From Dactylellina haptotyla (taxonomy: Eukaryota; Ascomycota; Orbiliomycetes; Orbiliales; Orbiliaceae): 64,000 nt of DNA. The notes below the pieces were generated by a model, which worked only from the letters and a program-made list of their open reading frames with translations, did not search any database and had not been told where the DNA came from. Shown here one piece after another: positions 10,293 to 24,164 of the stretch (the stretch's first letter is position 1; each line of letters begins with the position of its first letter). A program made the position numbers and the translations under genes. The DNA lies in the NCBI GenBank assembly GCA_031310005.1, contig CM062379.1, positions 6,758,001 through 6,822,000 on the forward strand, written 5' to 3'.

Positions 10293-13154
10293 CTGCGTAG
10301 CTTTCTTTTCAGGGAGCTATATACAAAATTAGCTAAGGGGCGGCGAAAATTGCATTCCAGAACCTTGGATTTGCCTCAGCCTTAGGTGACAGAGCCGCTA
10401 TCACGGGCTAGCTTAGGATTCGCACATGCCTGTTTCGGTTGTACGTGAGGTTTTTTTTCCTTCCTGGTGTTTCTTTGTTTAGAAAAACATCAGGCCGCTG
10501 ACAATCGCATTTAGCGAAAGAATGGGGTTTCCATAGGACCAGCGGTTTCCGGCGAGAGGGAGAAAAAAAAAAAAAAAAATCTTCATTTCAATTGGTCTTT
10601 GGCGGCCATGGAACAAAAATGCAAATTCAGACTTGACGTTGGTCGTGGTGGAGGCAAAAAGGTCAAAAATAACTATTGTTGCGTTCGTTTGGCACACCGT
10701 CCCGCCGCCATTTTGGCGTTCGCTTCGACTTCCCCGTGAAACCGACTGCATGAAGCGCGTAATGGCCAAAAAAAAAATAGAAAAACCACTCGGCCGGTTT
10801 TTGTTCGCCCGCCGCAGTTACACCAAGGAGACGGAACTTAGCTCCCTGGTTGTCCACGATGCCAAGGCTGTTGAAACAACCTCCAAGAGAAGACAATAAT
10901 AGGATGAGATGGTGATGCCCATGCTCCGCTTCTATAGATATGGCCTCCTAAATCAGGAAATCGAGGGGAAAAAAGTCCGCGGTGAATTTGAAATGAAGAA
11001 GAACCAGTATAGGAGGAGTCAGATTGGTTGAAGGCGACTTGCTCCATTGTCTATCTGACGTGAGGATTGGACAGCTCGAGGACGGGTGTACGTACTCCTG
11101 TGCAGGATATCGCAAAGGGTGGTGGGGTGGAAGCGAACGAGCATGGAAAAGCACACTAGCCACTATCGGGCGTCTGAAACAACATGGCCTTGCGCAGAGG
11201 CTAGAGCGAAGCAGGTTTTCCAGATGTCAGGATTGCGCCAAAGTGAAAATCAAGGACAAAATGTCATATGCGGGAAAAGACTGAAGGACTCAGCCGTCGA
11301 AGACTCGTTTATTTTTTGCTCAAAGATAGCATCAATCAATCGATCCCGTCTGCTGGAATATCAATATCGCTCCGGACTCACCCTTCCGGTCTCAAGCGCC
11401 TGCGGATCGATCCCACTTTGAGAGATATCTCGAGAACACACACTGTTGCAATCACCGAACCCGCCCGGGTTCCAAGATCAAGAAGGGAAGGGGAGGGAAA
11501 AATAGAAGAAGCACGGCGACTCTGCATGGAATCCATAGCCTATCATTGACTTGCCCGCCAGTCGCCATCGGACGATCCAAACTTGAACCTGAGAGAGAGC
11601 GAGAGAGCAGGCAAGCAAGCGTCAGGGGGGTGCATCTCTCTCTTCGTTTCTCATTCTCCGTTTCTTCTCTCGCACTGACACGGCGGGGGTAAAAATAACA
11701 TCCCATCAGTCAATCAATCAATCAAAATATATCCTATCCGTTTCTATTTTTTGAACCACTATAGTTCTATCGAACATTAACAGACACTGACTAAGCCAGC
11801 GACCCTCGTCCGGGCCTTGTCTGTGCAAGTTTCCTACTGTTGCATTGGACGGACGGTCCCTACATCATATCAGACCAGTCCGCCTGTCTGGTTTGACACG
11901 CTGACGTTTGTTTCCTGTGGGCGACGATAACAAGCTACTTACTCCTCGACCGTTGATTGAGTGACGTGACGTTCTGTCGCACATTCCCCATTCCAGATTG
12001 TCACCACCAGTATACTCCCTAGCTCTTCCTCACAGCTCTTCTGCCGCTGTCCGGTCACTGCATCGGCTGTTCTTATTATCGAATAGCCATCGCCATCCGT
12101 CGAACCTCTGGCTGTTGGGAGAACGACCCTTGCCGTTGTTCTTGCCATATTGCTCGTTCATTGCCGTTGTTTGACGCTACGGCGAAACGTCTTTCCTTCC
12201 TTTCCTTCCTTCCCTTCCTTCGAGCTCTCCACCCGCCGTAGTGCATTGGCCCCCCTTCCTCCCTTCCGTTCGAACCAGTCGGAACCGGTGCCCGATACGG
12301 CCTAATAGGTATCTACCACATGTAAGAAGCGCTCATTTGAAGGTACATGTACCTCGCCCGCATTCTTCTTCTCTCTCCCCCTTGGATTGATTGATCAACT
12401 GGATCCAATTCGTTCGATTGTGCACGGCGTAGACCGACCAATATCAAGATCGATTGGAGACTCCATCTGCATTTTTCGAAACGGTGGAACCCAGGTCGGA
12501 CGACGATTGGGTCACAATTCGGGTCTGAGAAGGAATACATACCGCAGGCTGGAAGAGGAAGCAGACAAGACCCCAACAGCCGAAAGAGAGCAGCGAGAGA
12601 ATAATTCCAGAAAATTAAAAAATAAATTAAGGAAGACGGGCAGAAAGAGACAGGAACAGGGCAGGCGGGCAGGAACGAGGAACGAGGCTTTTTTGCTCCC
12701 TTCTCCCCCCCACCTGCGGCCTTGATATTATCGACGGAACGAGGGAGGACGAGAGGACGTTCGAAGAAGGGCGTCCGTCGCAATTCGATTCACCCATCCG
12801 GCGGGCCACGAGGAGCGCCCGATCAGGAAGGGTCGCTCGCTTGCTGCTACGAGTTTTATTCTCGTTCTTCTTCTTATTATTTTATTTAACAGGGCTTTTA
12901 ATAGCATCGCAGCGCACTTGTCAGCGCCTGTTCCTACGCACTTGCTCGCTCTGAGCAGCACACAAAAAAGCAAAGGCCGGCTGAGGGTGCACAAACGACG
13001 GCCGCCGCAACAACACCATCGCCAATTTCAACCTCGTCCCCAAATTAATCCTTCCTCGAGGATTCATTCTCTCGCCCATTCATTCACTCATTCATCCGCC
13101 CATTCATTCGCTCCCACCACGACGGACAGGGAAGAGCGCCAATCTGTGACAACA
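10293..13154. other. Long upstream region and probable leader of STE20
   Basis: There are 2.86 kb without a supported gene. It contains an A-tract at about 10562-10579, a pyrimidine-rich run of TTCC repeats at about 12190-12235, and ATTC-type short repeats near 13065-13115. The neighbouring F-box gene and STE20 diverge from here. Such long regions upstream of fungal signalling genes often hold long, intron-bearing 5' leaders, but I cannot place a transcription start. Confidence 0.5.
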
Positions 13155-16100
13155 ATGCCGATGGAGGAATCCGGCGCGAAGGAGTCGGGCAGACATCACC
13201 ACCATCCTGCGGCTCCCTCCCACGCCCCTCCGCCCCCCCCTCCTCCTCTACCGCACAAGGAGAAGGAAAAGGAAGCCAAACGACGCACCTCCAAGCTGCA
13301 GAAGCCCCCTCCGCCAAAGATCACCACCTCCACCTTCGGCCACCCCAGTAACGCAGGCAAGTCGAGATCGTCCTCCTCAATCACCCGCAGCCAGAGTTCC
13401 AGGTCCCCCCGTCCCAGAGACTATCTCTCCGAAACTCCCTCCAGGTCGCCTCGGCACGAACGCACTCCCACCTCCCCCAATATTGCTGTTCCAGAATTCC
13501 CCCCCTCCTCGTCCTCCACGTCGCTCGACCGTGCTCTTCGCTTCTCCAGCGAATATACCAGGCAGCCCTTAAATCTCACAGATCCCACCGAAAGGGAGAA
13601 GAAACCGCCGAGCGGTGGGACGTTTGGGATTAGGCCAGGTCCCGTTTCAAGTGGCAGGCAATCCGAGGACGGCTTGGCTCACCATTCGTCGTCGAGACAC
13701 AACGATCTCTATAAAACATCGAACCCTGAAAATCGTACCACCTCCAGCGCCCACCGCCACAACCAACACCACCACCACACTTCCACCTCCACCTCCACCA
13801 ACTATCGCGACAAGCGCAACACCCTCCAACCCAAGAGCAATATCGTCCGCTCTCAGACTCAACCGCAGCAGCAGCAGCAGCAGCAGACTTTTCCTTATCA
13901 TCTCCCCAACCAGCAGCATTCGGATCCCTCTGTTCCCACCCTGACTCCCGCTACCTCTAATCTATCTGATGGTGGTCCTACTGGCATGACGACTTCGCAC
14001 AGCTCATCGTCGCAATCCAAGCAGTCAAAACGAGGATCCCGATCCCGACCTCCAAGCCCCGATCTTACAGGCAAGATGGCTGTTGGAACTGGCACAACTA
14101 GCCCCAAACGGCTATCAGACGAAACCCGACACCCCGCTAACCCTATCGTCAAGAAGAAGGGCGGCCTTTCTGGTTTCTTTGGATTCGGGGACAACAAACC
14201 TCTAAGGAAAGTCGAGATATCACAGCCCAGCAACCCTGTACATGTAACACACGTCGGTTATGACTTTGAAACTGGCGAATTTACAGTAAGAAACCCCTTC
14301 TTTGTAACACACGTCGGTTATGACTTTGAAACTGGCGAATTTACAGTAAGAAACCCCCCTTCTTCCACTCGTGGCATCATCTACTACATTGGGTTGCTAA
14401 TCAATTCACTCTTACAACAGGGCCTACCACCAGAATGGCAAAAACTTCTGGAGAGCAACGGCGTCAGCAAGGAGGAACAGGAGAAACACCCCGAAACTGT
14501 TATGGAAGTCGTCCGGTTCTACAACGATGCGACAAATTCAACAAGATTCGAAGAGGATGTTGTCTGGAGCAAGTTCGAAAAGGCGCAGTCCAAAGACCTG
14601 ACGATGTTGATACCCGATACAATCCCACCGGCGGAAATGAACGGCCATAGCCCCGTCAGCCCTCGATTTCCTAAAGCTCATCAGAATTTCGAGAACCCGA
14701 GGGCTGCCCCACCAATCCCCGCCAAGTCTCCTCGAACAAGTCCTCCCCAACCCTCTCCTGTTCCGACCCGACCTGCGCCAAAGCCGCCAGTCGAACAGGT
14801 AACGCTCAAGGAGCCTCTACGATCGCCCCCCGTTCCACCTAAGGAGCCTCTCGATGGAAGACCGTCAACAGATGCGACCCGGATGCCGCCTCCGACTCGG
14901 CCAGCACCCCCAATGCCCGCCGAAATGCCAGTTCCCGAAGGCAGACCTGGAGTCCCACCCGAGATCGTTAGGAAGAACTCCCTTAGAGCGGCGAATGGTA
15001 AACCCAAGGAAACTGACATTCCAGCTCTACCTGCTGGTGGGGTTCCGGACGTCTATCAAAATATTGCCGCGAGCCACCAGGCTCAAGCTCAACAGCAGCA
15101 GATCCTAGCTCAACAGCAACAAATGCTGTACTTGCAGGCACAACAGCAGCAACAGCAGGCGCAGTTGGCGAGCCAGATGAATCAACTCGGCCTCCAAAGT
15201 GCTCCAGTGGTGCCTGCCCCACTACCCCCCAATAACGCTTACGCTATGCCTGGAAGTTATCAGCAGCAACAGCAACAACAATTCGGCGGGTCTAAACTCC
15301 CACAACAGCCAGGCATCGGGCAGAGGCGACACAATCGTAATCAGAGCAAAGACGCGGATATTCTGGCGCGTTTGAAGGCCATTTGCAACCCCGCCGACCC
15401 CACCAAATTCTATCGTGGATATACAAAGATCGGACAAGGTGCCTCCGGTGGCGTCTACACCGCCTACAGGCATGGATCTAACGCGTGCGTGGCGATCAAG
15501 CAGATGAACTTGGAGCAACAACCCAAGAAAGACCTTATTATTAATGAAATATTGGTTATGAGGGAGAGCAAGCACCAGAATATCGTCAACTTTATGGACA
15601 GCTTCCTCGTTCGGGGAGATCTCTGGGTCGTGATGGAGTATATGGAGGGTGGTAGTTTGACAGATGTTGTTACCTTCAATCTTATGACCGAGGGTCAGAT
15701 TTCTGCTGTCTGCAGGGAAGTTTTGCAGGGTCTTCAGCATCTCCACTCGAAAGGTGTAATCCATCGTGACATCAAGAGCGACAACGTCCTTTTGGCTCTC
15801 GATGGTAACATCAAACTCAGTATGTTCTTGCATCCTTTTCTACTAATCATTTTATAACTTACTAATTACCCTCTCAGCCGATTTCGGATTTTGTGCGCAG
15901 ATCAATGAAACAATGCAGAAGCGAACAACCATGGTCGGAACTCCGTACTGGATGGCACCTGAAGTTGTCACCCGAAAAGAATACGGGAGGAAGGTCGATG
16001 TCTGGAGCTTGGGCATCATGACCATTGAGATGATCGAGGGAGAACCCCCGTACCTTAACGAGGCACCGCTGAGGGCACTCTACCTGATTGCAACTATCGG

Positions 16101-22708: not shown

Positions 22709-24164
22709 CTACCAGTTGGCCCGTTTCTTGATATGTTCATTCTGGATGACCTCGATCCAATAGCCGTCCGGATCCAGGACAAACGCAACATCCTTCATTC
22801 TCCCGTCTGTCAACCTTTTCTTCCAATTGACACCCAATTCCTCGAATCGAGCACACGCGGCATCGAGGTCGTCAACAGTGATGCAAATGTGACCGAACTT
22901 CATGTATAATAGATCAGTTATCCGTCTAGACACATCCACAGACTCAACTGAAAAGATATACTTACGCCTTGCGGCTCCGCGTTACCATTGTGGTAGCCCT
23001 TGAAATCGCTGTCCGGATCATCAGTTCCGTAGTTATAAGTCAACTCTAGCAATCCCTCTCGATCGCTGGTCAGACTCTCATTTTCAACGTCCCCCTCCCG
23101 CTTATATCCCAAAAAGTAAAGATTGAACTTTCCGGTTGGTTTCTCATTGGTGCGAAGTAGGGTCATCCCCATAACCTCAGTGTAGAATTTGATTGATTCC
23201 GTTGCGCTCTTGACACGGATCATGGAGTGGTTCATCCGATAGCTGTTAGTATCGCTGGCTGTGGTGACCTGGTCTTTTAGGCCGATGATTTCAACCCAAT
23301 AACCGTCTGGGTCCTTTGCGAATGCGATACTGTCATTGAATACAGTCAGTTAGAGCACTGTACTGTATATCAAGGGAAACGTGTTCATACTGCCTCATAC
23401 TTCCCTCCGAGAGCTTTTTCTGGAAGGCAACATTATTGTTCTCGAGACGGTCACAGGCGTCCTGGAGGTTATCAACCGAGATGGCGCTATTCCAGACCAT
23501 GGCTATATTAGCAAATTTACGGCTTTTGGACTCGCTTGATCAAAACCTACATATGACCGAACCGTATACACCGATTTTTGTCAGCAGACAGACACATTTG
23601 GAGAAGAGAAGTTTTTAGATGAACATATCTCGATGAGGCTCCGCGTTTCCATTATTAATCGTATAGTTTGGGTCCGATTCGGTTCCATAATTGTGAGTGA
23701 GCTCGACAATGCCCTCTCTGTCGGTAAAATGGTTCCCAGTGCTTTCCGCCTTCGGTCCGTCAAAGGCCAGGAAGTAAAGATCAAACTTCCATTCTGGATT
23801 TGGGAGCCTATCAACTCAGAGAGTGAGTTAGGCGCTCTATATATCTGGTATTAAGATACTTTATACTTTTGAATGACCTTCATTCCCAGAAGCTCGTAGA
23901 ATTGAACTGTTTTCAGTGTAAGCACCTGTTGAGCGCCGCGGAGGAATATGCACCAAACACATACTGCTTTTTTCGGGATCCTTCACCCGAAGCCTTTCAA
24001 AGACGATTAGAATATACCACGATATTATTCTGCCGGGGACAGAGCTATCTACATTGTATGATTGAACCTATATGAGCATTAGTCTCTATACGAAAGCAAT
24101 TGTATCGTCAGAGTAGATCAAATAATACGCACTTATAAGTGGAAGTATCTGTAGCGGTCGCCAT
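22709..24164 (-). CDS. glo1: Glyoxalase I (lactoylglutathione lyase), two-domain form
   Basis: Nine exons: 24164-24133, 24067-24053, 23993-23965, 23906-23867, 23807-23629, 23563-23551, 23486-23391, 23329-22966 and 22897-22709, giving 318 residues, close to yeast Glo1 (326). It isomerises the methylglyoxal-glutathione hemithioacetal to S-lactoylglutathione. Two tandem VOC domains are present. Metal-ligand positions are intact in both: [41 protein letters not shown] and [11 protein letters not shown], then [35 protein letters not shown] and [11 protein letters not shown]. Exons of 15 and 13 nt are needed. All introns are GT-AG except 23628-23564, which starts ATATGT and ends TAC. No canonical alternative keeps the frame, since reading on reaches a stop within a few codons. 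The matching intron in the second half (22965-22898) is GT-AG. I judge it an intact gene, not a pseudogene, because every other exon is uninterrupted. Confidence 0.88.

Follow-up and report, generated by a model that had tools for sequence, protein, structure and literature searches.

A probable AT-AC intron with U2-type signals in the glyoxalase I gene of Dactylellina haptotyla and its apparent counterparts in the Orbiliaceae

The gene for the detoxification enzyme glyoxalase I (lactoylglutathione lyase) of Dactylellina haptotyla, a nematode-trapping fungus, which lies on the minus strand at 22709..24164 of the 64,000-nucleotide stretch of DNA analysed here (the window), raises the question of how an intron that starts with AT and ends with AC is removed from a coding sequence in which all seven other introns are GT-AG (length, 58-68 nt), and whether such ends are a private mutation or an old property of the gene. 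According to the spliced model and its homologues, the gene has the two-domain fungal form and runs from the ATG at 24164 to the stop at 22709 through nine exons and eight introns, with a coding sequence of 957 nt (318 aa). Its predicted membership of the glyoxalase I family is based on a full-length match to fungal lactoylglutathione lyases and on the presence of the GFGH motif in both domains. It seems to be the sole gene of its kind in the genome; among three candidate places scored, the next-best protein match shares only 35% identity.

Intron 5 (23564..23628, minus strand as are all features of the gene; 65 nt, phase 1) follows exon 5 (23629..23807; 179 nt, 3' end ...CATCGAG) and precedes exon 6 (23551..23563), a 13-nt microexon, GGTTCGGTCATAT, that encodes GFGH and the start of the following I, and that was absent from the first-pass annotation. 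The microexon is in turn followed by intron 6 (23487..23550; GT-AG, 64 nt, phase 2). The coordinates and the AT-AC ends first assigned to intron 5 proved exact to the base, with GAG of exon 5 followed by ATATGTTC ... CTGACAAAAATCGGTGTATAC and then by GG of the next exon, so that the 3' end of the intron reads GTATAC. The 5' splice site ATATGT (23623..23628) has one mismatch to GTATGT, the 3' splice site in the spliced model is TAC (23564..23566), and the branch site CTGAC (23580..23584), the sole YTRAY match within the intron, is normal as had been described, with its A at 23581 and 17 nt after it. The intron of the second half of the gene that had been presented as equivalent (intron 8, 22898..22965) is indeed GT-AG, but its place corresponds only closely, not exactly, to that of intron 5 since it is in phase 0 after the glycine codon, whereas intron 5 is in phase 1 inside it.

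The consequences of splicing or retention are those predicted in the first-pass annotation. Retention of intron 5 leads to PHR-DMFI-stop, with the stop after four codons, while use of the AT-AC ends together with removal of intron 6 yields EPHRGFGHIAISV, a family-like product with fitting exon phases. The ends cannot be shifted, because exon 5 contributes the first G of the glycine codon and the next exon its GG, and a one-base slip changes the residue. Enumeration of GT or GC donors with AG acceptors around the intron gave eight pairs that leave an open frame, none of which keeps GFGH; HRGFGHIAISV is obtained from the AT-AC junction only. The microexon residues are the rule in the family, with FGH found at this place in 115 of the best 120 of 7438 homologues. 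The five others are P0002, P0003, P0006 and P0019, all orbiliaceous, and P0111, which has GFGN. We take the histidine of GFGH to be a metal ligand, namely His126 of human GLO1. Intron 5 contains no AG, as opposed to two to six in each of the seven other introns, and the first AG ends at position 82 counted from the intron start, past the microexon; given that 691 of 20,000 shuffles of the intron letters also lack AG, this state is only mildly unusual. An origin of intron 5 as a copy of a sibling intron was also considered by computing its local similarity to the seven other introns (200 shuffles each); intron 8 came nearest, with 13 of 200 shuffles scoring as high, which is unconvincing after seven tests.

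Deposited proteins of relatives bear on the age of the AT-AC ends. Among the matches listed, the best are from Orbiliaceae, namely O. oligospora (83% identity over 99% of the query), D. dactyloides (80% over 99%) and D. stenobrocha (79% over 99%), with the separately deposited D. haptotyla record showing 98% identity over the 69% that it covers. Five of the six named orbiliaceous orthologues among these matches are broken exactly at intron 5: three lack the microexon, one is split into two genes and one starts inside the intron. P0002 (D. dactyloides) and P0003 (D. stenobrocha) have HRDIAISV, and P0006 (Dactylella cylindrospora) GRDIAISV, in place of HRGFGHIAISV; their aspartate codon requires that an A follows the G of exon 5. 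The D. haptotyla record consists of H072_4607 (P0222), which ends PHRDMFP, and H072_4608 (P0019), which starts around intron 6; a single glyoxalase I gene, cut in two at intron 5, probably underlies both. If P0222 is a read-through product, its end implies an intron start AYATGTTYCC, that is, G then A at the border. The A. entomopaga protein P0196 starts MMLTNSIRFGHICISV and reads IRFGHICISV, with FGHI intact; the arginine codon before FGH means that the G of the exon is preceded by C or A rather than by G, and a CTGAC branch site is compatible with the L-T pair of this protein. The relatives were compared as proteins alone, with intron bases deduced by back-translation on the assumption that exon 5 ends alike in all and that the odd ends reflect read-through or gene-caller choice; taken in this way, the records imply that the first intron base is A in four species and that the last is not G in one.

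Two further records keep the motif. O. oligospora P0001, the representative of a cluster of 20 sequences, has an intact GFGH (RGFGHICISV), and its site could be GT-AG, intron-less or a correctly modelled AT-AC intron. P0004, from a JGI contig of 1,363 nt, shares 90% identity with P0006 and has KGFGHIAISV at this site. No break occurs in it where introns 4 to 8 would lie, so that it is suggested to derive from spliced RNA and is probably, as assumed here, the transcript of a relative; it would thereby lend indirect support to splicing at the AT-AC ends in vivo. A protein search with P0222 returned no further named orbiliaceous records among the best 120 of 231 matches. Taken together, these records make the AT-AC ends look conserved within the Orbiliaceae. 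The initial description was of a single natural case; the annotations of relatives suggest that the ends are common to the family.

The same records can be read differently, as evidence that the microexon is skipped. A GT is nested at positions +5/+6 of intron 5 (23623..23624) and is the only enumerated GT donor that leaves exon 5 intact and skips the microexon in frame, with nothing else altered. Joined to the acceptor of intron 6 (GATAT/GTTCAT, the slash marking the cut), it gives HRDIAISV, which might be the main product or an isoform and would lack the histidine that GFGH supplies to the first domain. The frame is open in the window, and the identical reading has been deposited for P0002, P0003 and P0006. 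However, GTTCAT is a poor donor, the prevalence of FGH among the homologues noted above speaks for inclusion, the microexon is intact in the window, as is FGHI in A. entomopaga, and P0004 contains GFGH. Moreover, the gene models of D. stenobrocha came from EVidenceModeler, which was given a Fusarium reference, and no RNA evidence is named in the passages of PMC3924618 that describe them. Skipping, as main product or isoform, is thus judged very unlikely.

An even less likely explanation is an error of the assembly, the true ends being GT and AG, or a dead allele or strain pseudogene. Two independent substitutions precisely at both end bases would be needed, the seven other introns and the whole frame are intact, and the separate record of D. 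haptotyla is broken at the same place.

AT-AC ends and a donor that begins ATAT would also be expected of a U12-type intron removed by the minor spliceosome, of which the consensus is ATATCCTT for the donor and TCCTTAAC for the branch. Neither signal is present, as already claimed in the first reading: by comparison with this generally known consensus, the donor has three mismatches in eight positions (only one to GTATGT), and within the last 30 nt even the most branch-like stretch departs from it at four of eight. Rfam families were searched against the whole genome (39.8 Mb in 11 contigs) with a tool whose control genomes are prokaryotic. Under these conditions U12, U4atac and U11 gave no match at E<=1, and U6atac gave none over its cut-off of 33 but two weak matches of 21.5 and 20.4 bits, the second of which overlaps a U6-like locus; U11, U12, U4atac and U6atac are therefore all without a locus over cut-off. 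The same search of the genome placed five U2 loci and two U6 loci over cut-off, and three U1 loci, all under the curated cut-off of Rfam (best E = 2.6e-13). An altered U1 fitted to an A at +1 was not seen, ACTTACC being kept in all three U1-like loci, and the ACAGAGA box is present in both U6-like loci. Published surveys have not revealed convincing minor introns among Ascomycota and Basidiomycota (PMC10639083), and Ascomycota are counted among groups lacking U12 splicing in PMC2846911. On these grounds removal by the minor spliceosome is barely credible. The intron combines the ends of the U2-type AT-AC class with ATATGT as donor (+2 to +6), CTGAC as branch and no U12 signals, and the earlier U2-type reading is, as far as can be judged from sequence, the best one. 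As for the U6 loci themselves, the better one (contig C3, 3497926-3498034) carries an apparent mRNA-type intron, GTAAGT...GCTAAC...TTACAG, directly before the ACAGAGA box, and this intron contains GTTCGAATCC, a B-box-like stretch; a similar intron arrangement is found in fission yeast U6. The second U6-like locus (contig C1, 6867785-6867885) keeps the core ACAGAGAAGATTAGCATGGCCCCTGCACAAGGATGA with a different upstream part, and is either a gene or a pseudogene.

A stwintron (nested introns, described in filamentous fungi) spanning introns 5 and 6 has next to no probability: the two introns are only 13 nt apart, but these 13 nt are conserved coding sequence, and the 65 nt of intron 5, with one YTRAY and no AG, cannot hold an internal GT-AG intron.

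Further AT-AC introns were sought in the 260 kb surrounding the gene, where a hexamer model with relaxed thresholds served to pick out introns flanked by coding sequence. This yielded 36 GT-AG and seven AT-AC candidates along with three to 17 for each of 32 other end pairs, and two GT-AG and two AT-AC candidates at scores >30, while stricter thresholds gave at least eight GT-AG candidates. No AT-AC rate is claimed, because the scan is powerless for rare classes and would miss intron 5 itself owing to the microexon. One of the two top AT-AC candidates lies at C1:6,850,147-6,850,214 and the other within the GT-AG intron 8 of glyoxalase I, where a nested AT...AC pair, ATATCTTT...CTGATCTATTATAC, is found at 22904-22959. 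Its use would add an in-frame insert of four residues; the aligned homologues have no such insert. Elsewhere in the window, a perfect 60-bp tandem duplication (14243-14357; 1.9 copies, 100% match) lies in frame within the ORF 12726-15857. The protein stretch in which it lies presumably resembles the CRIB motif of a PAK-type kinase.

We thus regard it as highly probable that the AT-AC ends of intron 5 are genuine, that the major spliceosome removes this intron, and that such ends are an old feature of the glyoxalase I gene of Orbiliaceae rather than a private mutation; splicing in vivo, the A-C contact and the shared ancestry of the AT-AC ends are the parts of this explanation that we infer. 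From established splicing biochemistry, U1 and U6 would recognize the ATATGT donor through bases other than the first, with U1 pairing with AG/.TA.GT (the slash marking the exon border; mismatch at the first intron base) and U6 pairing through ACA of its ACAGAGA box with TGT at +4 to +6. U2 would pair with CTGAC. In the second step, the A at +1 and the terminal C would stand in for the G-G contact of ordinary introns and thereby allow joining at TAC, there being no competing AG within the intron, and the outcome would be the inclusion of the 13-nt microexon with its GFGH motif. Such a contact has experimental precedent in yeast, where, according to passages of PMC6726248, a first-base A is rescued by a last-base C and, in a mutated intron, only GT-AG is more efficient than AT-AC. 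A more elaborate proposal, which we consider improbable, is that the AT-AC ends were kept because they are useful: ATATGT overlays a weak GT donor, and the cell could choose between microexon inclusion and in-frame skipping. If so, inclusion would give an active enzyme and skipping (HRDIAISV) would lose the first active site, and glyoxalase I activity would come to depend on how well an A-C pair is handled by the major spliceosome.

Introns of this kind are not new. AT-AC type II (U2-type AT-AC) introns were reportedly described by Wu and Krainer in 1997. The class is named in passages of PMC7072748, and cited in passages of PMC6726248. Intron 5 resembles its members in having AT-AC ends with U2-type donor and branch signals, and differs in occurring in a fungus with no detectable minor spliceosome RNAs, in its length of 65 nt next to a 13-nt microexon, and in ends that are apparently family-wide. 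Close ascomycete parallels appear in PMC6726248, where the major spliceosome of yeast joins AT-AC ends both in the SUT635 protointron and in mutants of a standard intron; however, SUT635 is non-coding and is spliced at GT-AG as well as at AT-AC, whereas intron 5 is in a protein gene and its removal is needed for the frame. For species that have no U12-type RNAs, AT-AC introns lacking U12 signals have been counted from ESTs (for example, 10 in Monosiga and 13 in Thalassiosira; PMC2846911, Table 2), but that table gives counts only and includes no ascomycete. A GFP reporter in Arabidopsis, described in part of PMC5473141, also has a U2-type AT-AC intron overlapping a GT-AG alternative, with the differences that it is a transgene and that the AT-AC form makes up approximately 17.5% of GFP transcripts in the starting line. 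The AT-AC share of splice-site combinations in fungi is given as 0.019% in Table 1 of PMC7072748, the main text of which mentions neither Orbilia nor Arthrobotrys nor Dactylellina, and the intronIC table in PMC7367187 lists zero U2-type AT-AC introns for both S. cerevisiae and S. pombe. Among the titles and first parts of abstracts listed from the open-licence literature, none concerned AT-AC introns of Orbiliomycetes or of glyoxalase I. Intron 5 joins an already known class, within which it stands out because its ends look conserved, because no minor spliceosome was detected in the genome and because of the microexon.

With respect to its origin, a tree built from the C-terminal part of this one gene (11 rows, 213 columns) gives support of 97/97 to the Orbiliaceae (8 rows) and of 99/96 to the pairing of the window with D. 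haptotyla, but six of its eight inner branches are open, so that the order of change cannot be read from it. A GT-AG ancestor may have undergone a double change of the ends, or the intron may have been born as AT-AC. If the AT-AC ends are indeed common to Drechslerella, Dactylella, Dactylellina and Arthrobotrys, they are older than much of the family.

Nature seldom offers a test of the first-last base contact in the major spliceosome, least of all in organisms that have no minor spliceosome and in which splicing by the U12 route cannot confound the result. Genes with AT-AC introns can be broken unnoticed by gene prediction, as indicated here by the mis-modelling of most of the named orbiliaceous orthologues listed, and more such introns could be sought by their signature, an orthologue that in several genomes is split, or misses a short motif, at the same place. 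Interest would rise with regulated skipping in RNA or with more AT-AC introns in Orbiliaceae. If the explanation favoured here is true, the A-C pair would in effect have been kept working by evolution, since the ends look conserved across the family and are needed for the catalytic motif, and AT-AC introns in ascomycetes can be stable, not merely transient.
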